From the NCBI GenBank assembly GCA_944325255.1, contig CALUZH010000005.1:1-60271 (forward strand): a stretch of DNA of 60,271 bases, read 5' to 3'. The position numbers and the translations under genes are program-made. The notes beneath the pieces are model-generated. The model saw only the letters and a program-made list of their open reading frames with translations. It did not search any database and had not been told where the DNA came from. The number at the start of each line of letters is the position of its first letter. The first letter of the stretch is position 1. Below, piece after piece: positions 2,611-30,759 of the stretch. Source of the DNA: an uncultured Erysipelotrichaceae bacterium. Its GTDB lineage: Bacteria; Bacillota_I; Bacilli_A; Erysipelotrichales; Erysipelotrichaceae.

Positions 2611-4854
2611 TCAAATTCGAATCTTTCTTCTAGCATCGATAAAAATCAAAACCGACAAACCTGCGAAGCCTATAACGCTTATCAATATCCCATGCTTTAG
2701 TCCGGGCGTTCCATAGTAAAAAGATAATTCTTGGTCGTCTTCGTCAATAATCACTCCCAGAAATCCGCCTTGAACATTAAGCGTTTTAAGTTTTTCTCCA
2801 TATTGATTAATCACATTCCATCCCTCGCTATAAGGGATCGCAACAAATAAGACACATTCATCTTTAACTTTTATATTTCCTTTAAAGTATTGACGATTAT
2901 ATTCAATTACATCCAGTTGTTCTTTTTCGATTGAGGCAGACTTCGATAGCAGTTTTAAGTCATCAGATTCAATATATAGTTTATTATTCCAATCATCTAC
3001 ATCTTCAATATTGTCAACATAGGTTGAATATGTATGTCCTATACTATTGAAATCGTCAACTAGATAAACAGAAATATTATCCAAATTAAAAGAGAATTCT
3101 CCGTTTAGCTCTGTAATTATTTCATTTTCTTCAACTGAACCCACAAATTTAACGCCTAACATTCGTAACAATTCTGGTTGATTAATGTCTATAATCCAAC
3201 TATCAAAACCGTTAGTATCCAAAAAAGGGCGAACGGTGGCATCATAGGTGCTGTCATAAGTTGCGGTAGTTCGATAATCATAAAGCATTGATGCATTTAA
3301 ATTCAAATTGCTAAAAGGACGTACTGAATCCGTATCAAAATAATATCGAAAAAGAGCCGTTTCATCAGTTTGCTCATGATATATTAGATAATTTTCATCA
3401 AAAGCTTTTTCACTTAATTGATAAGCATTTTTGCCCGCGACCATCAAAACAATATATAATCCTAAGTTCACAAAAACTGTAACTAAAACAGCATTTAATT
3501 TTGCATTATGTAATAAATAATCATAGAGAAATATCGGTAATATTGCACTTAAAAGCACAAAAATACTTACCATATAATAATTTATATCTAACTTATAAAC
3601 TATGGTGTATAAAACCAAAATAAACACGTATGCTATTGCTGCATACAGCATTTCTCGCCAATACAATTTATCATAGCTATATTTATCAATTGCATAAGAA
3701 CTGGCAATAATGGCAAAAAACATTAATAAGAAAGTCCAGCGTAACGTCGGCTCGCTAAAACCGTGGACCAACATATTCAATGGTCGAATCAAGGTAAAAC
3801 TTAAAATGATGCCAAAAGAAATCAAAAATAACCTTTTTTCTTTACTATTGCCCCTTTTTATTAAATGGACAATGCCCAGTAGCACTAATCCCGTTGCAAA
3901 AATGCCGAACTCTTGCGAAAAATGTTCATTGGTGTAGAAAAGGTATGGAGGATTATCACTGCGAAAGTTAAAAGCCGGAGATATTATACTAAAAAGAAAG
4001 CTAACTACTGTTCTAAAATTCCATAACAGGCTTCCGTAATCAAATGAAGCAACTCGCGGATTGGAAAATAAAAAGTAAATGAGCGGAAGTATGACGAAAC
4101 CGCACAATACTATTCCCACCAAATAAGAAAAAATTAACGGTAACGATTTTAATAAAACAAGCTTTATTCTTATATTTTCCTTTAACTTGTAGCTGAAAAT
4201 AAAATAAAGTATCAAAAACAAACTGCATGAATACATTAATTCGTAATTCTGCAAAAAGAGCAATGCAACAATTATTGCAAATAGACTTTTTTTATTGTCC
4301 TGAATATACTTTTCAACCCCGTAAAATAACAAAGGCAGTAAACAATAAAAGCGGTGAAACATATAGGTACCTGCATACATCATCGCAAAACCCGATAAAG
4401 CATAGATGATGGCAAATATATCTATTATTTTTTTATTTTTAATACCGAATTTTTTAAGATATATTATCATCGTTAAACCTGATATAACCGTACAAAAAAT
4501 AGTTTCAATGCTCAATAACATGTCCATATCGGGCATTTCATTGCCGCATAAAGCCATTATTATAAATAATGGGGTCAAAAAGAAATCACCGACACAGTAA
4601 AGTATTTTTGATGCAAAGAAATCAGTTCCCAAAAAAGTATTCCATGAATAAAAAGACGGGAATCCGTTACTTATGCTTTCGGTAATAACCCGATACCATT
4701 CGGTGTAAAAGATATTATGTTGAAAAGCCTGGTCATTATACCAGGCAAATGTTTCACTGCAAAAAATTGGCCCACCAAATACAATTAATCCAAAAATAAG
4801 CAAAATTATACTGACAAGTCCATATTCTTTTATTAATAACTTTAGTCTATTCAT
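2611..4854 (-). CDS. YfhO family membrane protein
   Basis: About 747 residues, mostly hydrophobic, with a final soluble outer domain (roughly the last 200 residues) and one last membrane span near the C-terminus. The N-terminal outer loop has the YfhO-type sequence around FPSFYSWNTFLGTDFF, followed by successive spans. YfhO proteins of Bacillota are large GT-C-like membrane proteins implicated in glycosylation of lipoteichoic acid. Several in-frame starts exist; ATG 4854 is preferred because it overlaps the upstream stop by eight bases (ATGAATAG), which suggests coupled translation, whereas the longest frame begins with TTG at 4917. No strong ribosome site is visible at any of them. It follows the 666-residue membrane gene in the same transcript. 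Confidence 0.8.
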   Translation of the reverse strand: MNRLKLLIKEYGLVSIILLIFGLIVFGGPIFCSETFAWYNDQAFQHNIFYTEWYRVITESISNGFPSFYSWNTFLGTDFFASKILYCVGDFFLTPLFIIMALCGNEMPDMDMLLSIETIFCTVISGLTMIIYLKKFGIKNKKIIDIFAIIYALSGFAMMYAGTYMFHRFYCLLPLLFYGVEKYIQDNKKSLFAIIVALLFLQNYELMYSCSLFLILYFIFSYKLKENIRIKLVLLKSLPLIFSYLVGIVLCGFVILPLIYFLFSNPRVASFDYGSLLWNFRTVVSFLFSIISPAFNFRSDNPPYLFYTNEHFSQEFGIFATGLVLLGIVHLIKRGNSKEKRLFLISFGIILSFTLIRPLNMLVHGFSEPTLRWTFLLMFFAIIASSYAIDKYSYDKLYWREMLYAAIAYVFILVLYTIVYKLDINYYMVSIFVLLSAILPIFLYDYLLHNAKLNAVLVTVFVNLGLYIVLMVAGKNAYQLSEKAFDENYLIYHEQTDETALFRYYFDTDSVRPFSNLNLNASMLYDYRTTATYDSTYDATVRPFLDTNGFDSWIIDINQPELLRMLGVKFVGSVEENEIITELNGEFSFNLDNISVYLVDDFNSIGHTYSTYVDNIEDVDDWNNKLYIESDDLKLLSKSASIEKEQLDVIEYNRQYFKGNIKVKDECVLFVAIPYSEGWNVINQYGEKLKTLNVQGGFLGVIIDEDDQELSFYYGTPGLKHGILISVIGFAGLSVLIFIDARRKIRI

Positions 4855-6847
4855 ATTGGTACGCATATACGGCAAAATTGTCGTTTTGATAGATTGGATA
4901 ACTTCCGCATTCATCAATCAAATATGTTATGGAATAGTATGTGTCACTATCTTCATCATAATATACAGCGTTTTTATCTTGAACAATTAATTCATATCTA
5001 TTGTTGGATATATATTCGCACATTTTATCATATTGCGGATTTTCGGGTGCATAAGGATCGTTATAATAGTCAGCAGGGTAAAATACCTTATACAACTCCC
5101 ATTCGTCTGAAATGCCGTTAAATGACTTATTCCGGCCATATAGTGTTTTAGTCCATGGAACTTCGGTATGAATCTGCAGGATCGATGATATTGTTTTAAT
5201 ATTGCCGGTCTTGTTATTACTTAAGACATAATCTTTAACAAAGCGAATTGTATCAGCTTCATCATTTGTCATTCGCAATATTTCATTATAATCATCAGAT
5301 TTTTTAAAACTGTCGTTTGGATGATACAGATATTGTTTATAACCACTATAAGCACTTAATACAATTAATGAAGCATAACTCAAAATACTTAAGTATTCAT
5401 TTTTGATACACTCCATGTTCTTAATACCGGTAAAAAGAATAAAATAATTAATAACGATGTCATAATTACGATAAAAAACAATCATGTATTGATTTTGAAT
5501 CGGGGCGGCAAAAGGATTAAAAAATATCAAAGCAATCCCCATCAGACTTTTGTACAAACAATTCCCTCGATTAGGGATGTATGCAAATAGAATTAAAACC
5601 AAATATACAACATTAGCGCTTAAACGCCATAGTGTACTATTGTCGGTATAATCCCATGTCATATCGGACCAGCCGGATAAATTATTTAAAAAGGCATCAA
5701 AATCAAATAAATTATGGGTTATATTAAAACTTAAACCCAATAATAATAAAGCAATTAACCATGGTACAATCTTTTTTAATCTTAGTTTCTCGCTCACAAA
5801 AATAATTAATTTTGGATATAAACTTAAAACTATCAATATTAATAAAGCACTTATTGTTAGAAAAACATTGTCTTTTAATGTAAAAACCAGATTTGCCATC
5901 GGCAAAGATAAACCAATCAAATATGACCTAATAAGATCTTCGTTGTCCTTAAAGTATATCCATAAGCCAAAATTCATTATCAAAGCCAAAGTGGTATTGC
6001 TGCTGGCACAGGCACAATTAGCCCATGTCAATAAGATAAATATGAATAAGATATTTTTTTCTCTAAGTTCGTCATAATCAAGTAAATAGATTAAAGAATA
6101 ACTAACTAAAATCATCCTAAAAGAATTGCCTAAATATGCCTGCTCGCTATTCCAATAAAAATTACCCATAAATAAGAGTATGAAGAGAGCAATTAATAAG
6201 TAGCTCCTTTTTTTGCTTATTCTAAAATATGAAATGAAATTTAAAATCATTTCGCTAAATAAAACATAAAGGATAATACTGTACATCCAGGTATGTTGGG
6301 TGAAATAAAAGAAATCAATATGCAGTTTACTGCAAATACCATTCATCAAATAATATAGGACAGCAGCCAAATTATAATATCCTTGCAAAGCATAGGTATT
6401 TTGGCTACCGCTGAAACCATTCATATATTCAGTAGTATTTAAGCCGTTTGAATAAATGTTGCCGGTTATTAAATTAGTATAGTTAATGGTATCGTACTGG
6501 CTTAATGAACCAATGGTACTTCTTGACGCAAAATAAATTTGTATAAAAACAAGTATTAAAATGAGTACAATATGCCCCAAAGAATACTCCAGTTTTATTT
6601 CTTTTCGACAGTGAAAAATAAATATTAGAATTAATAAGAAATATATCAGTGAGACTATTAAAAAATAAACGAATCTTGTATGAAGCAGGACAAAAGGAAA
6701 ACCGATTGCATAATATATACCAATAAAAGTACCAAAACCAATAATAATATTTGATTTAAATTTCCGTATATTTAATTTTGAGCAAACGGCCTGACCAAGC
6801 AATTCAAATAGAATTACTAAAACTATAGGGAGAACGAAATATTGCAT
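4847..6847 (-). CDS. Large polytopic membrane protein (DUF6077-like, function unknown)
   Basis: 666 residues with about a dozen or more hydrophobic spans and a soluble C-terminal domain (about residues 525-666) rich in Tyr and Asp. The first loop has SLSQYDTINYTNLITGNIY and the middle has a WSGWSDMTWDYTDN motif; both recur in the paralogue at 9007-11027, so they are probably functional. I tentatively place it in the DUF6077 group from memory of similar proteins; no reaction is established. It starts the leftward transcript that continues into the YfhO gene. Its ATG lies only nine bases after a strong extended -10 box, so the mRNA is nearly leaderless. Confidence 0.7.
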   Translation of the reverse strand: MQYFVLPIVLVILFELLGQAVCSKLNIRKFKSNIIIGFGTFIGIYYAIGFPFVLLHTRFVYFLIVSLIYFLLILIFIFHCRKEIKLEYSLGHIVLILILVFIQIYFASRSTIGSLSQYDTINYTNLITGNIYSNGLNTTEYMNGFSGSQNTYALQGYYNLAAVLYYLMNGICSKLHIDFFYFTQHTWMYSIILYVLFSEMILNFISYFRISKKRSYLLIALFILLFMGNFYWNSEQAYLGNSFRMILVSYSLIYLLDYDELREKNILFIFILLTWANCACASSNTTLALIMNFGLWIYFKDNEDLIRSYLIGLSLPMANLVFTLKDNVFLTISALLILIVLSLYPKLIIFVSEKLRLKKIVPWLIALLLLGLSFNITHNLFDFDAFLNNLSGWSDMTWDYTDNSTLWRLSANVVYLVLILFAYIPNRGNCLYKSLMGIALIFFNPFAAPIQNQYMIVFYRNYDIVINYFILFTGIKNMECIKNEYLSILSYASLIVLSAYSGYKQYLYHPNDSFKKSDDYNEILRMTNDEADTIRFVKDYVLSNNKTGNIKTISSILQIHTEVPWTKTLYGRNKSFNGISDEWELYKVFYPADYYNDPYAPENPQYDKMCEYISNNRYELIVQDKNAVYYDEDSDTYYSITYLIDECGSYPIYQNDNFAVYAYQYE

Positions 6848-6930: not shown

Positions 6931-8655
6931 ATGAATACTAACAAACATAAACTCCTTAATTTGTTTTTTATCAGCCTTCTTATAACCATGGTTGCAATGA
7001 TACCGATCTATGGAAATAGTATCTTTAATGGGCAAGATTTGACTTTTCATTTAAGCCGCATCGATGGCCTTTGGTCTTGCATCCAAGACCGTCAATTGCC
7101 ATTTGCTATTTATCCGTTCAAAAATTACAGTTACGGTTACGCTTCACCGTTATTTTATTGCGATATATTTTTGATTCTTCCTGCTGTCTTATATCGTCTT
7201 GGTGTTCCTCTGGTGCTTTCTTATAAAATACTTATCTTTATCATTACGCTCGTCGGCTGTTTTGGAATGTGCTACGCTGGTTTTTATATTTTCAAAAAAT
7301 ATAGACTGGCCACCATATCGACTATGCTTTGGGCATTTTCTTCATATCGTATTTTAGACTTATTCATTCGCAGCGCCCTTGGTGAAGCGATGGCCTTAAG
7401 TGTCTTGCCGTTTCTCATGCTGGCCTTATATCAATATTTCGTAGAGGAAAAAAATAATTTCTTATTCTTAGGCATCAGCTTTGCTGCCTTATTATTCTGC
7501 CATAATATCAGTTTTGTTATGGCGGTAGCTTTTTTTGCTGTCTTATTGATTATTTATTCCCCTAAGATTTGGCATAAAGTACATATGCTAAAAACACTTG
7601 CTTTAGCTTTTTTGATCGGCATAGGCTTATCGGCTTTTTATCTGTTGCCAATGATTGAACAGCTATTTAGCCAATCTTTTACAATGCAAACAACCTTAGG
7701 GACAATGCTCGAAAAAGGGATGCCTTTTTCAAGGTTTTTCGAAGATTTTATAATACAAAATTTAAAATCGGATATTTCTCATCCGCTTAATTATCTATTC
7801 ACTCCGGGATTATTGAGCATAATGTTTTTGCCACTACCATTATTTATTAAAAACCCTTTTAGATCTCAAGCCGGATTCTTTAAAATTTTAGCTATAATAT
7901 CTATCGTTTTAGTATTGTTTACTAGTGATTATTTTAATTTTATAAACCAGCTTCCGATCTTTAGTTTCTTACAGTTTCCATGGCGAGTTTTTACTATAAC
8001 CACAATCTTATCTCCTGTTTTCTTTTCTTACTTTATTTTTAATATCACCAATATTAATTTTAAAAGAATTACCGTATCAGCAACTTCTCTATTTTTAGTA
8101 ATCAATACTTTTTTTGTCTATAAAACCATTGTCTTATGTTCTGAAGTTATACCAAATGGTGAATCAAATGAAAATCTTTTTGCTGAGCAAATATATAAGC
8201 CTTATGGAAAAGGCGTTTACTATAATATTTCTGAATTAGGCGGAGGAGAATATCTGCCGGATACCTATGGCTTTGATTATCGCGAAATGGGATCTTGTAT
8301 TGCTTTTCCAAATTATGAAGCTGCCATCTGTGATTATTATCGCAACGGTTCTAAAATAGAATTTACCAGTAATTTCCCATATGCAGAAGATTTGCTTATG
8401 CCATTGACATATTATAAAGGATATAAGGCATACGAAGTCGATGAAGATAATAACATAATAAAAGAAATTCCTGTATTTTCTGAAAAATACAGCAAGCGTG
8501 TAACTATAAATTCTCAAGAAGGCCTTCACCATTATTCAGTTAGGTATGATGGTACATTTGTCCAAAAGATGTCCTTAGCCATTTCATCACTAACTTTTGC
8601 AACTATCATCTTTATCACCATAAAACATCTTCATCCAAGACCGAAGGAGCAATAA
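6931..8655 (+). CDS. Polytopic membrane protein with PTPS-related-type domain
   Basis: 574 residues with multiple membrane spans, a C-terminal outer domain (about residues 415-550) and a last span at the end. The N-terminal outer loop contains NGQDLTFHLSRIDGLW and the YASPLFYCDIF segment, the pattern of the membrane family Pfam calls '6-pyruvoyl-tetrahydropterin synthase related'. Despite that name the family consists of GT-C-like envelope proteins, not pterin enzymes. It is divergent from the leftward membrane operon and has no visible ribosome site. It is followed directly, without spacing, by the relic at 8656-9010. A role in envelope glycosylation is inferred from family resemblance and neighbours. 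Confidence 0.65.
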   Translation: MNTNKHKLLNLFFISLLITMVAMIPIYGNSIFNGQDLTFHLSRIDGLWSCIQDRQLPFAIYPFKNYSYGYASPLFYCDIFLILPAVLYRLGVPLVLSYKILIFIITLVGCFGMCYAGFYIFKKYRLATISTMLWAFSSYRILDLFIRSALGEAMALSVLPFLMLALYQYFVEEKNNFLFLGISFAALLFCHNISFVMAVAFFAVLLIIYSPKIWHKVHMLKTLALAFLIGIGLSAFYLLPMIEQLFSQSFTMQTTLGTMLEKGMPFSRFFEDFIIQNLKSDISHPLNYLFTPGLLSIMFLPLPLFIKNPFRSQAGFFKILAIISIVLVLFTSDYFNFINQLPIFSFLQFPWRVFTITTILSPVFFSYFIFNITNINFKRITVSATSLFLVINTFFVYKTIVLCSEVIPNGESNENLFAEQIYKPYGKGVYYNISELGGGEYLPDTYGFDYREMGSCIAFPNYEAAICDYYRNGSKIEFTSNFPYAEDLLMPLTYYKGYKAYEVDEDNNIIKEIPVFSEKYSKRVTINSQEGLHHYSVRYDGTFVQKMSLAISSLTFATIIFITIKHLHPRPKEQ

Positions 8656-9010
8656 ATGTCTATTATAATCCATCATTTATTCTTTACATCTTTCGCCATC
8701 ACTATCGCTGTAGCTCTCAACAAAAAATTTGATAAGATATTACCATTTAGTTTTATCATATCGACTTTTGTTTTTTGCTTCAGTGAATGTAAAAAAACAC
8801 TGTCCAGAATAGATAAATTTACCATATGATGAATGACAAGGTTTTTGCTTTGAATATAAGCGTATCTGCTTATACAGACAATGGAGAATTCTATGAAAGT
8901 AACTGATTGCATAAATAAAAGAATATCTTTTTAACAATCGTTTATATGCTGTCAACGACGATGCTTCATTAACATTGGTGCCATGGAATCCCGGCCCTTT
9001 TAATAACTAG
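8656..9010 (+). pseudogene. Relic of a membrane-protein gene (N- and C-terminal scraps)
   Basis: An ATG directly after the upstream stop, with GGAG seven bases before it, opens 57 codons of a hydrophobic N-terminus (MSIIIHHLFFTSF onward) ending in TGA at 8827-8829. Further coding-like scraps follow on the same strand: from 8835 a stretch beginning DKVFALNISVSAY, and from 8933 a C-terminus ending in VPWNPGPFNN before TAG at 9008. The pieces are in different frames with missing middles, so this looks like a gene eroded by deletions. The ribosome site suggests it was once co-translated with the 574-residue protein. Family unknown. Confidence 0.5.
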
Positions 9011-11027
9011 TCCATATAGTTGTATATAGCAAAACTATCATTGGTATAAACGGGATATTCCCCGCACCGATCTATTAGATAAGTCAAAGAATACCACGTA
9101 TCATTGCTTTCATCATAATAATTCACTCTTCTATCTTGAACGATGACATCAATTCCGCTTTCACTGATATATTCGCACATTCTATCATAATCTGGATATT
9201 GAGGAGCATACGGATCGCCTTCAAAGTCTGTGCGATAAAAAATCTTGTATAGCTCTTTGTCGCTTTCACTAGCATCTTTATGCATTGTATTATTTCTAGA
9301 ATATAGCGTATGAAACATCGGCATCTCTGATCTTGTCTGGTATATCGATGTAATTATCTTTGGATTTTCTTTCGTACGATTTACATAGATATCTTTCAAA
9401 GCCAAAAGTGATGTTGCTTCATCTTTATCCATCTTAAGTAATGGGTCATACTCTTCGTTTTTAATAAAGCTTGTGTGCGGATGGTATTTGATCTGATTGA
9501 TTGCTGCATAAAAACTTATAATAATCATCATTGTTATAATTGTTGCCGATAGTTTTTTGTTTGATAATTCTTGAATAAAACTTATCGCAAAAAAGACTGT
9601 AAAATAATTCAAACTTATATCATAATTACGATAAAAAACCGGCATATATTCTCTTTGAATTGGCACCGCAAAAGGATTGAAAAAGATAACCGCAGTAAAC
9701 AACATTACTTTAATCGGCATACTTCCTTTTTTATAATTGGCTATTATAACTAGCACGATTAAATAATAGATTATATTCCCGCAAAGACGCCATGAGGTTG
9801 TGTTGTCAGTATAATCCCATGACATGTCGTTCCAGCCTGACCAATTATTAATAAATGCATCAAAATTCAACATATTTCCGGTTATCGTAAATGATAATGC
9901 AATTAATAAAAATGCAACAGCAATTGCTATAATGTATTGAATTTTAAACTTAGTTATAACATTTGATATCTTTTCGCCAAATAAACAGAATAATATAAAA
10001 ACTACCGGTATAAATAAGGAAGCTGCTTTAAATAATATTGATTCAGACCCAAATAATTGAAATAGGATATTTAGCATCGGCAAATATATAGCTAATGTAT
10101 AAAACATTAGTCTATTTTTGTTGGGCTTTTGGCAAATAAATAGACTAAATATCAATATCAAAACCAATGTCGAATTTGAGTTGGCAGTCCCGGCCAAGCC
10201 GTAGATGAACAAAAATATAATAAATAAATATCCGTTATTTTTATGAAAACCATATTGCTGCAAATAGTAAAATAAATAACTGATTAGTATCATTCTAAAC
10301 GAGTTGCCTAAATATGCTTGTTCACTATTCCAATAAAAGTTTCCCATAAACAGTAGTATAAAGACGAGCACAAAAACAGCGCTCAATTTATTTAGTTTAA
10401 ACGCTCTTGAAAAATCTATTATCATTCCTGAAACAAAGGCATACAACAGTATGCCGTAAAACCAGATATGCTGAGTGAAATAAAAAAAATCTATAGATAA
10501 TTTATTGCATATTATGTTAACAAGATAATATAAGCAGCTAGCTAATAGATAGAATGATTGACAAGCATAGCCGTTTTGAGTCCCGGGATAGCCATTCATA
10601 AAGTCGATTGTATTTAAACCACCGGAGTATATATTACCTGTAATTAGATTTGTATAGTTAACTGTGTCATAAAATCTTAATGAACCAATTGTATTCCTAC
10701 AAGCAAACACAATCTGCATTCCAATCAGTAGCAACACGAACAAATATAAATAGGATCTATTATACAGTTTTAAGATTTTTTTCTTTCTACAACAATCAGT
10801 GCTACACACCCAAGAAAAATCACACTAATTAATATAAATAGTATTTTAAAATTTGCGTTTACTATAACCAACGGAAATCCAACAATATAAACAATTGATA
10901 AAATGCAGGTGAAGCCAATTAACCAATCAAACATAAAATTAGATTTCAAATTAAGCTTGATTATAATTAATTTTCCGATAAAATCACAAAAAATTAAAAA
11001 TAGTGCTGGAAGTATAAAGTATTGCAT
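9007..11027 (-). pseudogene. Frameshifted (or slippage-expressed) paralogue of the 666-residue membrane protein
   Basis: The first 85 codons (MQYFILPALF onward) match the N-terminus of the protein at 4847-6847. The frame then ends at TAA 10770-10772, while the rest of the homologue continues uninterrupted in the -1 frame for about 593 codons to the stop at 9007, keeping the motifs SLRFYDTVNYTNL and WSGWNDMSWDYTDN. The switch is at an A7 run (minus strand of 10776-10782) read in frame as AGA AAA AAA TCT TAA. An eighth A would restore one protein of about 675 residues. It may be a pseudogene by a single deletion, a phase-variable gene, or a gene read by -1 ribosomal or transcriptional slippage; the lack of other damage favours recent or functional slippage. 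An assembly error is also possible. Confidence 0.7.
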
Positions 11028-11037
11028 AACACAAAAT

Positions 11038-11046
11038 ATTATATCA
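11038..11046 (-). promoter_or_regulatory. Extended -10 promoter element (TGATATAAT)
   Basis: On the minus strand, the same extended -10 sequence as at 6857-6865 precedes the ATG at 11027 by ten bases, leaving a 5' leader of only about three bases. Conservation of this layout between the two paralogues supports it. Confidence 0.6.
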
Positions 11047-11237
11047 TTTCAAAAAACCATTGTAGAATAATTATTTTCATCAATGACTTTTCACATGTTT
11101 ATTAATAATTGTTTTTAATATCGTTGATTTTATAACATTTAAATAAAGTTTCTCACAATTATTGTGCTCACTTTACAATGGCATTTCTAATATTAAAGTA
11201 GCAAACAATTAACATATGACTGACGGCGAACTTTTAT

Positions 11238-11570
11238 GAATTAGGCATTAGGCGAATGATGATTGCATAGAACTATAAAAGGTCGAATTTGTAATGAAAT
11301 AAGTCCAATTGATTTATAATTCCGTTTTAAAGCAATGCAATCTTTTTTACACGCTAGAATGTTTGTTTTAGATCCAAATGGCAATTGAAATGAAACTTTG
11401 CCTTTTATATTGCATAGCGATTCGGGTTTTCAATATATCAATATAGAATACACATCGAATATCTTGAAAGGCATAGCATTAACCATTTCATATTCAAAAA
11501 AGAACAACTGTTATGACAATACCTGATATAAAAATTTCTTTTCTTATCTTAAATCGGAATATTTAAAACT
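11238..11570 (+). mobile_element. IS3/IS150-type transposase relic
   Basis: The gap 11028-11590 has no intact gene, but the plus strand holds decayed pieces of an IS3-family OrfB. At 11238-11265 the frame reads ELGIRRMMIA, like the HTH_21 segment. From 11392 the frame reads the integrase core: LHSDSGFQY, then SYSKKNNCYDN, a TGA, and FFSYLKSEYL. These match the family pattern of HSD-G-QY followed by S-KGNCYDN and an ESFFS-LK-E segment. Stop codons (TAG, TAA, TGA) and internal deletions make it dead. No terminal repeats were recognised. Confidence 0.7.
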
Positions 11571-11590
11571 AAATGGAAAAGTGTTTATTT

Positions 11591-12556
11591 CTATTTTAAA
11601 AGATTATTTAAGAAGGCTTCGCAAAAAGTTCCTTCTCCTCCATAATCTTCACCACCCTCTTTGCATAGTTTCCAATTGAGCTTATGTATCGATGTCATCT
11701 TCTTGATTTGACTCCATTCCTTCTCACTATATTTTTTAGTAAATCTAGTTCTTAAATAATTTGATTGACTATCATCAAAATATGGTATATCTTCCCAAAT
11801 TAACCTAAAATCATCATTTTCAATCACCACTTTAGAAAAACATATATGAATTAGAAAATAACTTCTTATTTTGTATTCGTTTTTCCAATATTCTAATAAC
11901 AATTCTTTAACTGTATCAATGATGGGATTGTGCTTTTTAACCCTTATTAACCATGAACTAGATATTCGAAATTGATTTAAAGTTAATGGGGCTTTAATCA
12001 TAAAGAAATCTTGGTCTAATACCTTTTTTATTGTTAGTACTTCAGCATCATTTATATTTTTGTATTCTGTTAAAAAAACCGTACTATCTATCCAACAGCC
12101 ACCATATTTAGATAAAACCATAAGTCTAATAATATCGGAATAGTGTGTGTTAGTAATATATCCTTTTTCATATTTATCTTTAATATAATCCGGAATAGTT
12201 AGATATTCTTCAATATTTTTACTATCTAATACTACTGATTTATAATTAATTGTATATTTTCTAATGGAATCAATACAATTTTTCACCAATAGAGGTGCCT
12301 CATCCTCTCCTTGTAGCCACATTGTCCAAATAATATCTTCGTTATAATTTTCATCTACATAACTGACTGCTTTTCTATTTTTCCAAACATAATCATACTT
12401 ATCTAAATATGACATTAATTTTTCTTCGTTTATGAATTGTATTACTCTTCCATTTAGTGGTTTTCTATAAAACAATTGATGGAGAATCTGTATTAAAATG
12501 ATGTATGGACTGCTCAAAGTTCTTAGTCTTTTTATTATCTTTTGACCATATGTCAT
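11591..12556 (-). CDS. Capsular polysaccharide synthesis glycosyltransferase (Caps_synth type)
   Basis: 321 residues. The pattern EDIIWTMWLQGEDEAPLLVKNCIDSIRK near the N-terminus and YSDIIRLMVLSKYGGCWIDST in the middle are those of the capsular polysaccharide synthesis family (GT32-like, DXD-type sugar-nucleotide transferases); here the DXD position reads WIDST. The protein has no clear membrane span and is probably cytoplasmic. It is the last gene of the polysaccharide operon, and its ATG overlaps the stop of the FrhB-like gene (TAATG). Donor and acceptor sugars cannot be deduced. Confidence 0.8.
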   Translation of the reverse strand: MTYGQKIIKRLRTLSSPYIILIQILHQLFYRKPLNGRVIQFINEEKLMSYLDKYDYVWKNRKAVSYVDENYNEDIIWTMWLQGEDEAPLLVKNCIDSIRKYTINYKSVVLDSKNIEEYLTIPDYIKDKYEKGYITNTHYSDIIRLMVLSKYGGCWIDSTVFLTEYKNINDAEVLTIKKVLDQDFFMIKAPLTLNQFRISSSWLIRVKKHNPIIDTVKELLLEYWKNEYKIRSYFLIHICFSKVVIENDDFRLIWEDIPYFDDSQSNYLRTRFTKKYSEKEWSQIKKMTSIHKLNWKLCKEGGEDYGGEGTFCEAFLNNLLK

Positions 12557-13683
12557 TAACTTTTTCTCCTAAATATACTATTTATTTTATCCATAATAGC
12601 AATATTTACTTTCGTTAAAAGCAAAGATTGTGAAAGGCTATGTTTATTAAATAGTTTAGAAAATTTAATTCTGGCAGCATTTAGTTTCCTTGGATTAACT
12701 ACGTCCTCGTTATCTTTTATTGCATCAACTAATTCAACTTCTTCTTTCAGGATATCTTTTAAACTAAATAGCATCTGCACTCCTCTTTCAGTGTGACATA
12801 TGCATATAGATACTCCGTTTTTATCATATATTTCATTATTATCTGGCAATCCCCAGAAATCTCCAAGAGTTATATCGGCTTTTGAATTGTCTATTTTAAA
12901 GCGGCATTGATAACAAGATTCTCTTGCCAATAAATAAAACGCTTGACCATATTTTGTACTATAAAGTTTTTCTATATAAACATCTCCATTTTCAAACTCG
13001 GCTTTTAAATATGGATGTTCCCAGCCCTCCTTTTTAAACCTCATATTTAAACTACTCATTTTTGATTTATATTTTTGTTCTAAAAATTCTACAAATTGTT
13101 GCAATGTTTTTTTAGAAGTAGGGCCGTGACATACTAATTCGCACAATATTAATTTTCTTCTTTTACCCTTGGGCATTAAACTATCGATTGCCGCTATTTC
13201 ACATGGCAAACCAACAAAAAGAACCATTTTCCCCTTATTTACTTCAAGTTCTACCTCTTTGTATATGTTATCTTTGTTTGATTGAGTATATTTACTCCCT
13301 TGGATTAGATATAAATCTTCCACTCTATCTATCTTAATATGTGATGTCTCTTTAAAATTATCTGAAAAAGACACTCCAAATACTACGCCCTCTTCCTTTA
13401 TTACTTTTTTTGCTAATGATGTCGCAATTCCTCCAGAAGCACATTTTTCTAATTCATTTTTATCCTTAATATGTGCTGCATAGCACTTCATAAAATTATT
13501 GCTTACCTTTTTTAAATTAATTGGGCATTTTACGTTGCACAAATTGCAGTCTATACATTTGTCTTTGCTTACTATTGGATACCTATACCCACAATATCCA
13601 TCTTTCATTTTGATAGCTTTTGTAGGACAAATATTTTCACATAATGAGCAACCATTGCAAGCAGATTTTTCTATCTCAAGCAT
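12556..13683 (-). CDS. FrhB/FdhB-like 4Fe-4S protein of polysaccharide clusters
   Basis: About 375 residues. Two 4Fe-4S ferredoxin motifs lie at the N-terminus (CNGCSLCENICPTKA and CIDCNLCNVKCPI). FrhB-type N and C domains follow, with SQGSKYTQS-like (QGSKYTQS), GLPCEIAA, ELVCHGPTS and ADITLGDFWG segments. Proteins of this coenzyme F420 hydrogenase beta-subunit family occur widely in exopolysaccharide operons beside pyruvyl transferases, where their redox role is not established. The ATG at 13683 is chosen because GGAG lies nine bases upstream; a longer frame starts at a TTG (13698). The gene begins two bases after the flippase stop and overlaps the next start by one base. Confidence 0.85.
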   Translation of the reverse strand: MLEIEKSACNGCSLCENICPTKAIKMKDGYCGYRYPIVSKDKCIDCNLCNVKCPINLKKVSNNFMKCYAAHIKDKNELEKCASGGIATSLAKKVIKEEGVVFGVSFSDNFKETSHIKIDRVEDLYLIQGSKYTQSNKDNIYKEVELEVNKGKMVLFVGLPCEIAAIDSLMPKGKRRKLILCELVCHGPTSKKTLQQFVEFLEQKYKSKMSSLNMRFKKEGWEHPYLKAEFENGDVYIEKLYSTKYGQAFYLLARESCYQCRFKIDNSKADITLGDFWGLPDNNEIYDKNGVSICICHTERGVQMLFSLKDILKEEVELVDAIKDNEDVVNPRKLNAARIKFSKLFNKHSLSQSLLLTKVNIAIMDKINSIFRRKS

Positions 13684-13685
13684 TT

Positions 13686-15119
13686 CTACTTTCTCCAATC
13701 TTTAACAAGAATTCTTGTTTTTTTAATAAAATCTTTGTAAATTAATAATCCTATAATTATTAATAAAATATTACCAGCATAAACAATTGTATTTGGTATA
13801 TATTCAATAGAATTTAATATAGCGGCTATCAGAAGAGCTATTGTACTTTTGATTATGTAACCGATTTTAAAATTGAACCATAATTTCCGAGAATAAATTG
13901 TCTTGATCCAGAAATAAAAATTATGAGAAATCCCTGTAGCAATCGCTGCACCGATAGCGCCAAGTTCAGGAATAAAACAAAAATTAAGAACAAAATTTAA
14001 AATCATTGCCGCAGCTGAAAAGTATAATGAATATTTAGTTTTTCTGGCAAATTCTATGCCTATACTTGTGGTTGACATCATTAATGCCATCACTGGATAA
14101 AACAACAAAAAAGGCAAAATATGTATTGTATTATAGTAACTATTCGAAAGTATGATTGGGAGGATGTCTTTAATCACTAATGTCCCCATGAAAACAACGC
14201 ACGCAACAAAGCAAACGCCTTGTTGCATAAATTCAAACTTCTCTTCTTTTTCATTCTCCGCTTTCCATTTATATGATAAAGGTATCCAAAACGTAGAAAA
14301 AGCTTGCTGAATTATCATTATCATGCCAGCAAGAGACATTGCCACTTGGTAGTAACCCAATTCAGAATAGCTCGACATATATTTCAAAAATACTTTGTCT
14401 TGCCCATTGAATAATGTTCCAATTATTGTCGCCGGTATCAGAGGCAACGCAAATCGAGTCATTGTTTTGATTAGCTTTAAATCTATTATATTTTTTTTAA
14501 AATCAAATATTTTATGATAGACAATAATCAAAATACCGTCGGTTATATAATGAGCAATTAAAGTACTATATACTATAGCTAGATAGTCTTGCCTTATATT
14601 AAATAAATAATATAAAGTAACCAGAAAAGATACTAATTTTAATAAAAGAGAGAAAATGGAGTACTCAAGCGCTTGTTCTTTCATCCTTAAGCTAAGCAAA
14701 ATATATCTTTCTAGTAAAATTAAAGGCAATGCTAAAGCTAACATATAAACCACTTCTGGATGTTCATATGATTCGAATAAAAAAAAGGATATATTTGTTG
14801 AAAATGGAACAACAAAAATAGCAACAACTAGGGCTGCTATAAACGGCACAATAAGAGAGTTTATTAATACAACTTTTTTATCTTCATACTCGTGATATTC
14901 TCGTATATACGCTTGGTCATATCCTAAATATGTTATCATTACTAAAGTGTTATACAACAAATTAAACATACTTGTTTTACCATACTCATTAGGAAGCAAA
15001 AAATGCGCACATAAAGGAACAGATATTAAACTAAAAATAGATCCTAAAATGGGGCCGATTGAAAATATAATAAATTTTTTAGCTATATTAATTGTTGTAT
15101 CTTTACTTTCTTGATCCAT
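13686..15119 (-). CDS. Wzx-like oligosaccharide flippase
   Basis: 477 residues with about 12-14 hydrophobic spans, the length and pattern of the MOP/MATE-type polysaccharide exporters. The N-terminal part (SLISVPLCAHFLLPNEYGK, then YDQAYIREYHE) is typical of Wzx flippases. It would turn the undecaprenyl-linked repeat unit to the outer membrane face. It sits between the WecF-like transferase and the FrhB-like gene in a close-packed operon. No Wzy polymerase is seen in the window. Confidence 0.85.
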   Translation of the reverse strand: MDQESKDTTINIAKKFIIFSIGPILGSIFSLISVPLCAHFLLPNEYGKTSMFNLLYNTLVMITYLGYDQAYIREYHEYEDKKVVLINSLIVPFIAALVVAIFVVPFSTNISFFLFESYEHPEVVYMLALALPLILLERYILLSLRMKEQALEYSIFSLLLKLVSFLVTLYYLFNIRQDYLAIVYSTLIAHYITDGILIIVYHKIFDFKKNIIDLKLIKTMTRFALPLIPATIIGTLFNGQDKVFLKYMSSYSELGYYQVAMSLAGMIMIIQQAFSTFWIPLSYKWKAENEKEEKFEFMQQGVCFVACVVFMGTLVIKDILPIILSNSYYNTIHILPFLLFYPVMALMMSTTSIGIEFARKTKYSLYFSAAAMILNFVLNFCFIPELGAIGAAIATGISHNFYFWIKTIYSRKLWFNFKIGYIIKSTIALLIAAILNSIEYIPNTIVYAGNILLIIIGLLIYKDFIKKTRILVKDWRK

Positions 15120-23605: not shown

Positions 23606-23860
23606 ATTTCCTATTTTACTTTTAAATCAGACATTCCCGAATATATTACTAAAGCTTATACCACTTTAAAAGAGAGAATTAAAGACGACGATGTTTTGCG
23701 ATCTAAATTATTCGAATTTTTAGAAAACACCCCTATTTCTAAATCTCTATATCAAAATATCGAATATAAAGATCAATCAAAAAACAATACTGCGAGCGAA
23801 TTTATTGAAGTATCTATTGTCCACTTTATTGAAGAAATAAAAAAAGGTTTGCATATTTAA
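23606..23860 (+). other. Coding-like 3' fragment on plus strand
   Basis: The last 84 codons of a long plus-strand frame read as a normal soluble protein (IPEYITKAYTTLKERIKDDD, then SEFIEVSIVHFIEEIKKG), whereas the upstream part of that frame looks antisense to the ORF at 23236-23592. No start or ribosome site is visible within it. It is probably the C-terminal end of a broken gene, converging on the sce7726-like gene with a four-base overlap. Confidence 0.3.
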
Positions 23861-24597
23861 AATGTGCAATCAAATTTTGATATATCGTCACATTCCTTTT
23901 TCAATTTGGCGTAATCATTGCTGTGCTTTTCTTTCAGCATCATTTTGAAAGCCGAATTTATTTCCTTAAGATTGTAATTTTTATCAATACTTGATATTAA
24001 GCTGTTTTCAAAATATGTAATCCGATCTTTTTTGGTCATTACATTAAGTATAGATATTTTGTTTATTGTCTTTGATTTTTTAGCTTTTCTAACTCTTGTG
24101 AATTTATGACTCTGATTTTTATAAATGTAAATTCCACAATCTTTATTGATGATCTTTTCTATTTCTTCAAGCATATCTTCAAAACATATGACATATACAT
24201 ATTCAAAACATTTTAAATACTCATCGGTTTGTTTTAATATCCTATTCGTATTATCATACTTTGTCTTTATTTCATATGCCGTACTGTTTTCACCTACGCC
24301 AATTAGATCAGCTCGCACATCACCCAACTTTAACTCTTCAAAGTAAATATCATTACTATTAAAAAGATGATTAATCACAAAATCTCTTTTTACAAAATAT
24401 TCGTTTCGATAATATTTTTCAAGCATTTTATATATCACTGTTTGTGGTTTAATGCTACCAAAGAAAATATCATAATTTATATCCAAATAGTAATCTAAAA
24501 GCGTCTCGATATTCTTCCCCGAGCGATAACCGTTGTATATATCTTTAATATTACTTTTAACATCCGCAACGTCAAACATTAAATCCAAAGTACTCAT
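23857..24597 (-). CDS. sce7726-like protein (putative nuclease-fold accessory protein)
   Basis: 246 residues. The centre has FEELKLGDVRADLIGVGENSTAYEIKTKYDNTNRILKQTDEYLKCFEYVYVI, which resembles a PD-(D/E)xK nuclease core (D in RADLIG, ExK in YEIKTKYD) and matches the sce7726 family as I know it. Such proteins are frequent in prophage and defence regions; function is unproven. A clean ATG opens the frame but only a weak ribosome site precedes it. It is divergent from the TOTE-type gene about 500 bases to the right. Confidence 0.65.
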   Translation of the reverse strand: MSTLDLMFDVADVKSNIKDIYNGYRSGKNIETLLDYYLDINYDIFFGSIKPQTVIYKMLEKYYRNEYFVKRDFVINHLFNSNDIYFEELKLGDVRADLIGVGENSTAYEIKTKYDNTNRILKQTDEYLKCFEYVYVICFEDMLEEIEKIINKDCGIYIYKNQSHKFTRVRKAKKSKTINKISILNVMTKKDRITYFENSLISSIDKNYNLKEINSAFKMMLKEKHSNDYAKLKKECDDISKFDCTF

Positions 24598-25098: not shown

Positions 25099-28062
25099 AT
25101 GAAAGAACCGATTATTGATATTACCTTATTACAAAAACAAATTAATAAATTGCAATTAGAGAACCAGATTCTCAAAGATATTCTTGACCAAGCAGGTATC
25201 TCTTATGCTCACGAACTTCGTAATGTCATCAATGGTGAAGACGTTGAGAAATATGATCCCAACCAAGGTTCACGAATTATTCACCCAGAACATATCACGG
25301 CCGATATGGCAAATCTTTTTTATTCCCGATTTTGGGGGCGTCAAGATGTTTATGCAAGAAGAAGCGAGAAAAAAGAAACAGGTGAAGCAGGCTACTATAC
25401 CCAATGTCATAATCGTTGGTATGATATCTGTCCTAAAATGCGGCATGAAAAAATCAATTGTAAAGATTGCCCTCATCAAGCTTTTAAGCGCTTGACCATA
25501 AATGATATCTTATATCATTTAAGAGGGAATTCTTTTAATGCTTCCGATGTAATCGGTATTTATCCCTTACTAAAAGATGGGACATGTCGATTTCTGGTCT
25601 TTGATTTTGATAATCATGATAAAAATGCTGAAAAAAGGGACTTTGCCAACCACGATGATACGTGGATGGAAGAGGTTAATGCTATGCGAACAATTTGTCT
25701 TTTAAATGGTATTGACCCGCTTGTTGAGCGTTCCCGTTCAGGCAAAGGGGCTCACGTATGGATTTTTTTCGATAAACCCGTCCCGGCATCAACTGCAAGG
25801 AAATTCGGTTTTGCTCTTTTAGAAAAAGGAGCTGAACAAGTAAATCTCAAATCTTTTAAATATTATGATCGAATGCTTCCTGCTCAAGACAGTCTTACGA
25901 AAAATGGATTGGGCAATTTGATTGCCCTCCCTTTACAAGGACGAGCACTACAAAATGGAAATAGTGCCTTTGTAGACAAGAACTGGAATGCCTATCCCAA
26001 TCAATGGAAAATTCTTTTAAGCAAGCCTCGACTTTCCTTGGCTTTTATAGAAATGAAAATAAAGGAATGGTCAAAAGAAAATATCTTCGAAATACTCGAA
26101 TCGGAAGACGATCGGGAAAAGCCATGGAAGAAAGAAAAACCGTTTTATCCCCATGATGTTGATGGCGATATTAAAATTGTTTTGGCTAATGCCGTCTATA
26201 TAGACGGTCTCAACCTAAAAGCCTCGATTCAAAATCAAATAAGACGTCTTGCTGCCATTAGAAATCCGATATTCCATCGAAATATCGCAATTGGTATGTC
26301 AAATTTCGCTACTTCGCAATGGATATATTTAGGCAAGGATCATCTAAGCGGTTATATTGAAATTCCAAGAGGACTTTATGATAAATTGAGCACCAAAATC
26401 AAGGAGTCAGGTATATCCTATACTCTAAGTGACGAACGCCAATGTGGAAAATCAATTAATGTCACTTTTAAGGGAGAACTTCGTAAGGAACAATTATCTG
26501 CACTTCAAGAAATGCTGAAATATGATAATGGTATCCTCCATGCTGCCACAGCCTTCGGTAAAACCGTTGTATGTAGCGCAATAATCGCCAAAAGAAAAGT
26601 AAATACTCTAATACTCATTGAAAATTCTACCCTATTAGAGCAATGGAAAAATTCCTTAGAAAAATTCCTCGATATAAACGAAGAATTCCAAGAATATAAA
26701 ACTAAAACCGGCCGGCGAAAACGTCGAAAAAGTTTAGTCGGCAAACTTCAAGGAGCTCATGATTCAATGACCGGAATTATCGATATCGCAATGGCCGGTT
26801 CATTACGTAAAAAAGGTGAATGGCATCCCTTGCTTGAACAATATGGAATGATTATTGTTGATGAATGTCACCACGCTGTTTCCGATACCATCAGTGAAGT
26901 CTTACAAAAAATACCGGCAAAGTATGTATATGGTGTAACTGCAACTCCTAAGCGATCTGACGGCCTTGAAAAAATAAATTATATGTTGATAGGACCAATC
27001 CGTTATAGTTACACTTCAAAAGAAAAGATCAAGGAACAGGGTATCCCGCATTTGGTATATCCTCGTTTTACAAGAACGGTCATTTCTAAAGTTGATATAT
27101 CCAAAAGAATGCACCCAAACGAAGCCTATGAAATTTTAAGACAAAACGAAAGTCGGGATGAACAAATAATATCAGATATAAAAGACTGTATCAAAGCAGG
27201 ACGAACGCCGGTAGTTCTTTCAAGATATAAGGAGCATGCGGAAAGGCTTTATATTCAAATCAAAGATTACGCCGACAACGCATTCTTATTAACTGGCAAT
27301 AATTCAAAGAAAGAACATCGAAAAATAAAAGAAAAACTAGAAGCTGTTTCTCCTGATAAAACTCTGGTTTTGGTAGCTACCGGGAGTCTCATAGGCGAAG
27401 GTTTTGATTTCCCACGTCTTGATACATTGATTATGGCTACGCCAATTTCTTTTAAAAGTGTTGTAGAACAATATGCCGGACGACTTAATCGCGATTATAA
27501 CGGAAAGAAAGATGTTATCGTCTTTGATTATGTTGACAGTCATATTCCGATGTTTGAGAAAATGTATGCTAAAAGGCTTAAGGCATATAAGCAAATTGGC
27601 TATGAAATCTGCAATGGTCTTGGTGCCAATAAGCAACAAGCTAATGCCATTTTTGACGGCGAACAATATCAAACAGTTTTTGAAAAAGACTTGCTTGAAT
27701 CGAAAAAAGAAATCATTATATCAAGCTCCATTATCAGTTCTAGAAAAATATATCAGCTCATATCCTTATTAAAAGAAAAACAAGAACAGGGAGTTGATGT
27801 AACAATCATTACTCTAACACCCGATGGCTACGGTTTTGGGGATGCCTCTTTTTGGATGCAATTGCATGACCAAATATATCTGTCAGGTTTTTATATCAAA
27901 ACAACAGATGATTCCTGCCTAAATTTTGCCATTATTGATCGGGAAATAGTTTGGTATGGCAATATCCATCTATTAGGAAAAGAAGACATTGAGGATAACA
28001 TCATGCGCATCAAAGATTCAAATATTGCCTCAGAATTAATGGAATTAACTTTTAAACAATAA
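25099..28062 (+). CDS. TOTE-type conflict system protein: AEP primase domain, SF2 helicase, PLD-like domain
   Basis: 987 residues. A short coiled coil (about 6-32) is followed by a four-Cys knuckle (C103, C111, C121, C124). Next comes an archaeo-eukaryotic-primase-like domain of the TOTE kind with the catalytic FDFDN at 168-172 and SRSGKGAHVW at 212-221. The SF2 helicase has Walker A ATAFGKT (483-489), DECHH (588-592), TATPKR (614-619) and the motif VI stretch QYAGRLNRD. The C-terminus (about 885-987) is PLD-like, with NFAIID at 942 where an HKD motif would stand, so it is probably catalytically dead. These proteins are predicted to act against mobile DNA. The gene is alone, has a weak ribosome site, and is flanked by decayed genes. 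Confidence 0.85.
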   Translation: MKEPIIDITLLQKQINKLQLENQILKDILDQAGISYAHELRNVINGEDVEKYDPNQGSRIIHPEHITADMANLFYSRFWGRQDVYARRSEKKETGEAGYYTQCHNRWYDICPKMRHEKINCKDCPHQAFKRLTINDILYHLRGNSFNASDVIGIYPLLKDGTCRFLVFDFDNHDKNAEKRDFANHDDTWMEEVNAMRTICLLNGIDPLVERSRSGKGAHVWIFFDKPVPASTARKFGFALLEKGAEQVNLKSFKYYDRMLPAQDSLTKNGLGNLIALPLQGRALQNGNSAFVDKNWNAYPNQWKILLSKPRLSLAFIEMKIKEWSKENIFEILESEDDREKPWKKEKPFYPHDVDGDIKIVLANAVYIDGLNLKASIQNQIRRLAAIRNPIFHRNIAIGMSNFATSQWIYLGKDHLSGYIEIPRGLYDKLSTKIKESGISYTLSDERQCGKSINVTFKGELRKEQLSALQEMLKYDNGILHAATAFGKTVVCSAIIAKRKVNTLILIENSTLLEQWKNSLEKFLDINEEFQEYKTKTGRRKRRKSLVGKLQGAHDSMTGIIDIAMAGSLRKKGEWHPLLEQYGMIIVDECHHAVSDTISEVLQKIPAKYVYGVTATPKRSDGLEKINYMLIGPIRYSYTSKEKIKEQGIPHLVYPRFTRTVISKVDISKRMHPNEAYEILRQNESRDEQIISDIKDCIKAGRTPVVLSRYKEHAERLYIQIKDYADNAFLLTGNNSKKEHRKIKEKLEAVSPDKTLVLVATGSLIGEGFDFPRLDTLIMATPISFKSVVEQYAGRLNRDYNGKKDVIVFDYVDSHIPMFEKMYAKRLKAYKQIGYEICNGLGANKQQANAIFDGEQYQTVFEKDLLESKKEIIISSSIISSRKIYQLISLLKEKQEQGVDVTIITLTPDGYGFGDASFWMQLHDQIYLSGFYIKTTDDSCLNFAIIDREIVWYGNIHLLGKEDIEDNIMRIKDSNIASELMELTFKQ

Positions 28063-29641: not shown

Positions 29642-30759
29642 TTAGACACCCTTACCTCCCAAATCCAGAATTTGCTCAACATTTGGCGTTATCGCAAAAT
29701 AATCATTTTCCAGAATGGTTTTAGGACTTACGTTATTGCGATTCTCTACTTCTGAAGCACAATGACAAACAACTTCTCTTCGAGTACCATACTGTTCCTT
29801 TTTCATGAAATAATATGAATGAAAAGGCAAACCTAAATCTAAAATTTCCGGATTATGTGTCGTTACAAATAATTGTTCGTCACTTTCTATTAATGATGAT
29901 AGCAAGGAGATAAAGGCCTTTTCAATATCGGCATTAACATATGAAAATTGCTCGTCAACCAAATATATACCGTTCCTTTGATTTTTGATTGCATATATCA
30001 AGTCTGCTATATTAAAACCATATTTAGTTCCGCTGGAAAGACGATCGAGCTCTTTTAAAGACATTCCGTTTTGAATAATAATCTTGCCAACCACTTCATG
30101 TTCAATCACCAAAGCATCATCAATATCCTGGCTTCCGGTCACCGATATTATCGAAGGATCCAAGGTATTTAAAACCCTGAATAAGATATCTCTATATAAT
30201 TTTGCATCTTCTTTATTATCTTTGGAAAAATGCGGCATTTGGATTTTATCAAATAGATTTTCTGTTGCCGGAAGCATTATCATCCATCCGGAACTTAAGT
30301 CTATTTCATTTAATGAACTTAGATAATCATGAAATTGATAATCTGCCTTATCCAAATATTTTTTTGAGTTCTCATAAGAACTGCGGCTTCTTATTTCTAT
30401 CATGTGGTACGCTACTAAAATACGCCCTTCAGCATCTTTAGAAAAATCGGTCTTTATTTTGATGCGATATAAAAAGTTATTTTCCGTAAGGTCTATTTCA
30501 ATATTCGCCTCTTTTTTCAGATTGTGGACAATATTTTTAATGCTCTTTTCTTCTTTTTCACGTAAAAACAATAAAATATTCCACAAACTTCTCATTAACA
30601 GCGTTTTCCCACTGGCATTAGAACCGATAAAAATATTTATTTTTTGTACCGGAAGGATGGCCGATCTCTCAAGTGCTCATCTTTTACCAAAAAAGAATTA
30701 ATCTTTTGGGGATAAGTAAAATTAATTTTAAAATTATTGAAGATTAAAATGTTATCCAT
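29642..30759 (-). pseudogene. AAA (SMC/ABC-like) ATPase gene, frameshifted after 33 codons
   Basis: From ATG 30759 the frame reads MDNILIFNNFKINFTYPQKI to DEHL, then breaks. The next frame continues from GAG at 30670 as ERSAILPVQKINIFIGSNASGKTLL, containing the Walker A, and runs to the stop at 29642. A one-base deletion between 30670 and 30671 explains it. Later motifs are intact: LSSGTKYG (signature-like), GIYLVDEQFSYV (Walker B) and FVTTHNPEIL (switch His). An internal ATG at 30597 would make 317 residues but without Walker A. With the TOPRIM-like relic downstream it resembles two-gene ATPase-nuclease defence pairs (OLD/RloAB-like); this is inference. Confidence 0.7.

Follow-up and report, generated by a model that had tools for sequence, protein, structure and literature searches.

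The gene at the centre of this analysis, found within the 60,271-nucleotide stretch of DNA that was analysed (the window), is intact and in no way unusual for its family of primase-helicases, which is patchily distributed and associated with conflict genes. The domain family itself is known; the TBP-less, Schlafen-paired form with a dead PLD tail is a variant of it, and the new element is the Schlafen partner encoded on the same strand in relatives. An anti-invader role is likely, and we assign an even chance to the fuller proposal that the gene is a mobile, single-gene conflict factor whose primase-helicase works in the manner outlined below.

The gene consists of one uninterrupted open reading frame (ORF) of 987 codons, confirming the intact 987-residue protein described by the first-pass annotation, and is present as a single copy in its own genome (a 1.40-Mb assembly of 32 contigs). 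Because both flanking genes are encoded on the opposite strand, it is a single-gene unit (Table 1). Scans for promoters and terminators in its vicinity detected no signal above chance. A four-Cys knuckle, an AEP-primase-like domain, an SF2 helicase and a PLD-like tail had each been recognized earlier, and all four were borne out by Pfam, an alignment of relatives and a model of the tail. The coiled coil recognized with them corresponds to an N-terminal helix in a full-length fold model that was itself poor (pLDDT 60.7, pTM 0.43) and was not used beyond this low-confidence helix. The AEP-TOTE domain PF22548 matched residues 71-313 (E 1.1e-78; 264.5 bits against a Pfam cut-off of 27) and, with both this score and the characteristic residues in place, the protein belongs to that domain family. 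Pfam matches to the helicase part were ResIII (E 8e-22), DEAD and Helicase_C; the nearest solved relative of this half is XPB, and it is also RadD-like. The match to PLDc_2 was weak (E 0.0015 with the whole protein, 5e-5 with the tail alone). PADLOC labelled the front part of the protein PrimPol (8e-65), and the nearest solved relative of the primase domain is the CRISPR-associated PrimPol 7nqd.

Table 1. Coordinates of the primase-helicase gene, its parts and its conflict-type neighbours in the window.
Feature	Position	Strand	Basis or remark
sce7726-family ORF, conflict-type neighbour	23857..24597	-	NCBIfam NF033832 E 4.9e-31; PADLOC 'cll' 1.2e-12
AEP-TOTE primase / SF2 helicase / PLD-like protein, 987 aa	25099..28062	+	single-gene unit
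N-terminal helix, residues 8-31 (putative coiled coil)	25120..25191	+	full-length model, low confidence
Archaeo-eukaryotic primase domain, residues 71-313, with D169, D171, H219, D257	25309..26037	+	Pfam, alignment
Four-Cys knuckle C103/C111/C121/C124	25405..25470	+	all four kept in 53/53 aligned sequences
SF2 helicase (XPB/RadD/UvsW-like), about residues 460-820	26476..27558	+	domain and structure-relative matches
C-terminal PLD-fold tail, residues 846-987	27634..28059	+	PLDc_2, fold model, SauUSI PLD domain likeness
Degenerate HKD motif, residues 940-957 (C940, N942, D947, G954, N955, H957)	27916..27969	+	alignment
AbiLi/AriA-like ATPase ORF, apparently truncated	29642..30595	-	PADLOC AbiLi 2.3e-13, AriAB 4e-6

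Conservation was assessed with an alignment of 53 full-length sequences, that of the window included, taken from 81 loci of relatives. Each of the four knuckle cysteines is invariant. Among the AEP residues, D257 is present in every sequence, D169 in 52, and D171 and H219 in 51 each; the primase acidic residues, on whose conservation the earlier reading depended, are thus each kept in 51-53 of the 53 sequences. In the helicase, Walker residues K488/T489 and motif VI residues Q791/R795/R798 are conserved throughout, as are D588/E589 of the DECH motif in 52 of 53 sequences, the remaining one having a gap. Two diverged relatives (L029 and L030) lack the primase DxD and His residues and retain the helicase motifs; their primase looks dead, a natural primase-dead form. 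The first-pass annotation had argued for selection on the gene, and its dN of 0.15-0.20 to the nearest relatives (whole gene), with a pS of 0.83, fits purifying selection; because dS to these relatives is saturated, the values yield no usable dN/dS ratio.

The PLD tail is degenerate throughout the family. When the positions of the HxKx4D motif are assigned by counting from D947 and the G after it, C940 takes the place of the histidine and N942 that of the lysine in the window protein, and D947 is retained. Across the alignment, the lysine position is occupied by His (35/53) or Asn (10/53) and never by Lys, and the histidine position by Cys (37/53) and in three sequences by His; D947 is kept in all 53, and in the tail of the window clade GSxN has become GNxH. 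PLDc_2 was detected in 30 of 33 tails, and the window tail modelled alone adopted a PLD fold (pLDDT 91.9, pTM 0.87). Among solved structures, this model is closest to PLD enzymes, with the PLD domain of SauUSI (Z 15.1, rmsd 2.5 over 135 residues) followed by Nuc (14.3) and NucT (14.2); it also resembles the non-catalytic PLD-like domains of TrmBL2 (Z 12.5) and FAM83B (Z 12.7). Matches of the tail profile to PPR proteins arose from repeats and were discarded. Measured against a PLD nuclease, therefore, the fold is present and the catalytic HxK is missing (C940, N942). The tail had been called inactive earlier from its NFAIID reading; it is indeed degenerate, but not peculiarly so in this copy, and a loss of PLD activity specific to the window copy was ruled out by the missing lysine in 53 of 53 sequences. 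That primase and helicase occur with no live nuclease is likewise true, but of the whole PLD-tailed family and not as a puzzle of this one protein. Since the dead tail is a family trait, catalysis must be the work of the primase-helicase itself or of a partner. Single-HKD PLD enzymes build their active site as dimers, and for this reason a dead copy could act as a dimerisation or DNA-binding part, which is probably the role of the tail here.

The distribution of the family is patchy. Homologues were found in 30 of 194 relatives (E<=1e-20) and, across the order, in 44 of 315 genomes (E<=1e-60). Across the phylum, PF22548 was found in 12 of 295 genomes, and a homologue was missing from the sole same-genus genome compared. 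The 81 loci of relatives (L003-L083) comprise 52 intact copies, 24 flagged as disrupted and 5 cut by contig ends. Three of those flagged (L015, L025 and L026) each consist of one ORF whose C terminus is short or diverged; 21 remain, and about a quarter of the assessable copies are broken. One locus (L047) carries two primase-helicase copies (2897-5859 and 9983-12949) approximately 4 kb apart, one of which is split between two frames. Among complete Escherichia coli genomes, at least part of an AEP-TOTE homologue was found in 1714 of 5426, and at least 80% of the query in 681.

The neighbours of these genes were surveyed with the longest 122 of 218 dereplicated proteins. Pfam identified HATPase_c_4 (14), SLFN_AlbA_2 (9), AbiEii (4), JetD (2), Fic (2) and resolvases (2), to which PADLOC added JetC, type I REase, SoFic and AbiLi. 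The family is patchy, often broken and set among conflict genes (Wadjet, AbiE, type I R-M, Fic); the conserved housekeeping loci that would have spoken against the earlier reading are not where its homologues reside. The scanned proteins also include one of TIR-NACHT-Mrr type; a protein of this kind, 1204 aa long, is encoded near the primase-helicase gene of locus L077 (4948-8559).

Around the window gene, the earlier description of decayed surroundings held in part. ORFs are sparse in the flanks (1292 of 2412 bp on the left, 1413 of 2843 bp on the right), but the sce7726-family ORF covers its model nearly in full, a GNAT ORF is also present, and the truncated-looking AbiLi/AriA-like ORF matches the C-terminal part of AAA_21 only; with the N-terminal part missing, it looks like a remnant. 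The partner of sce7726 is sce7725, and no recognizable sce7725 gene was found beside the sce7726-family ORF of the window. Third-position GC is lower in five genes of the stretch containing the gene (0.27-0.31) than in five genes further out (0.36-0.42). An empty-site comparison with the same-genus genome was unproductive, the ABC operon being only 40-63% identical and the other flank unrelated.

As proposed, the protein would dimerise through its N-terminal helix and catalytically dead PLD tail, and its SF2 motor would load onto and open the DNA of an invader or of a replication intermediate. The AEP domain would then make primers or copies on the exposed strand, by which replication of the invader would be disturbed or its DNA marked. 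For many relatives, an adjoining same-strand Schlafen-AlbA_2/HATPase/wHTH protein would strike the decisive blow or exert control; the window copy, having no such partner, would act alone or with host enzymes. These biochemical steps, together with co-transcription of the Schlafen gene and the anti-invader purpose itself, are what we infer.

The Schlafen partner was sought with a profile built from ten Schlafen AlbA_2/HATPase_c_4/wHTH neighbour proteins, which picked out 26 ORFs no more than 2.5 kb from the primase-helicase gene, spread over 19 of the 81 loci; the match at L069 is weak (6e-7) and by eye is a Fic-type protein joined through its wHTH, making 18 loci the safer count. All 26 ORFs lie on the primase-helicase strand, on either side of the gene, and farther out in the 81 loci none was found at 2.5-7.5 kb and two at 7.5-10 kb. 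Because the profile was built from members of the same 81-locus set, it is this distance profile and the shared strand, and not the count, that constitute the evidence. Among further genomes, the independent set is one of 15, a second set of 26 loci overlapping the 81-locus genomes; a Schlafen gene was found in 2 of these 15, at 16 and 183 bp and on the same strand, with none otherwise to 10 kb. The background frequency of Schlafen matches is about 1.1 per Mb (82 in 75.4 Mb; Pfam, 30 genomes). With a Pfam control over the same 2.5 kb, Schlafen genes accompanied 3 of 30 primase-helicase genes and none of the 21 HsdM genes (the strong ones among 72 PF02384 rows) or the 28 AbiEii genes (of 33 rows) used, all of these being small numbers.

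Loci with the pairing are dispersed over the gene tree (10 changes, of which at least 7 are forced), and the Schlafen neighbours fall into several divergent subfamilies with 20-30% identity between most; judging from these sequences, they may be interchangeable regulators. No Schlafen neighbour was found in 62 or 63 of the 81 loci, many of which have short flanks. A search of the window in all six frames with the partner profile gave no match, excluding even a decayed partner near the gene, and the two Schlafen AlbA_2 genes of its own genome both lie on other contigs. The nuclease that the first-pass annotation had imagined as a companion of nuclease-dead forms has a candidate beside 18-19 of the 81 relatives and none in the window. 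In one locus (L042), a Schlafen-AlbA_2 gene lies on each side of the primase-helicase (8267-9760 and 12960-14564), the two being 45% identical to each other. One report describes Schlafen RNases that occur beside BREX genes as fusions with a minimal histidine kinase and a wHTH, with tRNA cleavage as their likely action (PMC12839542), and another describes AlbA_2 proteins in pAgo operons (PMC6299218). Given their presence at BREX and pAgo loci, the Schlafen proteins are a general companion of conflict loci and not specific to the AEP-TOTE family. A stronger form of the anti-invader proposal, in which a TBP-less primase-helicase with a dead-PLD dimer would sense or process foreign DNA and activate an interchangeable Schlafen RNase as a two-gene system, with orphans being reduced or using distant Schlafen genes, is considered unlikely.

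Equally unlikely is that the gene is a replication or priming helper of a mobile element (a plasmid- or satellite-type PrimPol-helicase) stranded on the chromosome. Matches were found in 259 plasmid records, 24 of which span at least 80% of the query, as would suit such a helper; the 40 listed of these 259 stop at approximately residue 835-845, and in the plasmids viewed the gene lies outside the rep module. Three E. coli regions were viewed, from 12 listed of 1717 records. In strain 143, an integrase island holds an intact, tail-less homologue (L131, 8001-10361) after its inovirus-type Gp2 gene and also carries an AlpA-like regulator and DUF3987/YfjI, a setting that again favours a helper. 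However, the same island in strain CPEC80 (L132, 8001-14912) retains its other genes with a truncated homologue in the slot, followed by the Mokosh genes MkoA (E 0) and MkoB (2e-151). The third region has a truncated copy elsewhere with no such island around it. Nor was an integrase or rep gene found among the window neighbours scanned. Phage records with a match numbered 2115, none of them over 80% of the query, and among the 30 listed, the match falls in the helicase part for 29 and on residues 7-214 for the other, a 9.7-kb unverified clone. Just 2 of 9 viral-contig loci (L122 and L123) extend into the primase half, which also counts against a helper and, together with the lack of long phage matches, ruled out a mainly phage-carried family. 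The relative at L122 (7971-10868) is PLD-tailed, 38% identical and located on a 60-kb contig of a viral collection; its neighbours by eye resemble helix-turn-helix excisionases and tyrosine recombinases.

Less probable again is a chromosomal PrimPol-helicase for repair or damage tolerance, combining a RadD/XPB-like motor with a repriming primase, in place of a conflict gene. The likeness of the helicase half to XPB and RadD is consistent with this notion, but a family missing from most relatives and from the same-genus genome, broken in roughly one of four assessable copies and set in variable, conflict-rich surroundings is not what it would lead one to expect. Finally, a PLD tail that is a live nuclease of altered chemistry, with His at the lysine position and Cys at the histidine position, is highly improbable: the confidently modelled fold, the invariant D947 and the recurrence of C940 (37/53) and H942 (35/53) speak for it, but the window clade has Asn at the lysine position (10/53) and the GSxN to GNxH change, distant members lose both residues and Lys occurs in none.

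The findings make a vague puzzle testable, with catalysis placed in the primase-helicase or its partner and a concrete partner candidate named. The AEP-TOTE family is common in E. coli, yet searches of the openly licensed PubMed Central papers brought up no experimental work on it.

With respect to known systems, the first-pass annotation had assigned the protein to the TOTE type. TOTE denotes TPR, OB, TBP and Effector, and the conflict systems of this name are attributed to Aravind, Iyer et al. 2022 in PMC12458937. Like the window protein, TOTE systems have a PF22548 AEP domain and an SF2 helicase; in contrast, the window has a single gene with a dead PLD tail. TBP (PF00352) was detected in none of 34 AEP-TOTE-bearing genomes, that of the window included, and in 4 of 14 control genomes, all of them archaeal. 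A TPR or OB (cold-shock) domain was found in none of 10 window ORFs scanned, which included all five flanking ORFs of at least 100 aa between 22.7 and 30.9 kb. With TBP missing from all 34 genomes and no TPR/OB gene next to it, the gene does not amount to a complete TOTE system in the strict sense, and the assignment stands at the level of the domain and not of the system. It is likewise the AEP domain from which NCBI gives stand-alone homologues in E. coli a TOTE name. These proteobacterial stand-alone proteins (WP_000233452.1, 786 aa), found on islands and plasmids, combine AEP and SF2 helicase in one protein with approximately 35-38% identity to that of the window, but they stop after the helicase, whereas the window protein continues into a PLD tail.

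The CRISPR-associated PrimPol (7nqd/7nqe; NCBIfam PrimPol_Msp) shares the AEP homology and the DxD and GxH motifs (E 2.4e-13); the window primase, however, scores 89.6 bits against an NCBIfam cut-off of 200 and is fused to a helicase. The type IV restriction enzyme SauUSI (7clg) likewise pairs an SF2 motor with a PLD-fold domain of very similar shape. Its PLD domain, a nuclease, is N-terminal (chain residues 26-174), whereas that of the window protein is C-terminal, lacks the HKD His and Lys, and is accompanied by a primase. SauUSI-type enzymes are defined by a catalytic N-terminal PLD domain and an SRA domain; with no Pfam match to SRA, the window protein falls outside this type. The partner seen in relatives also has a counterpart, in that the Schlafen-HATPase-wHTH genes of BREX loci, as described in PMC12839542, present the same architecture beside a conflict gene, the neighbour here being a TOTE-type primase-helicase.
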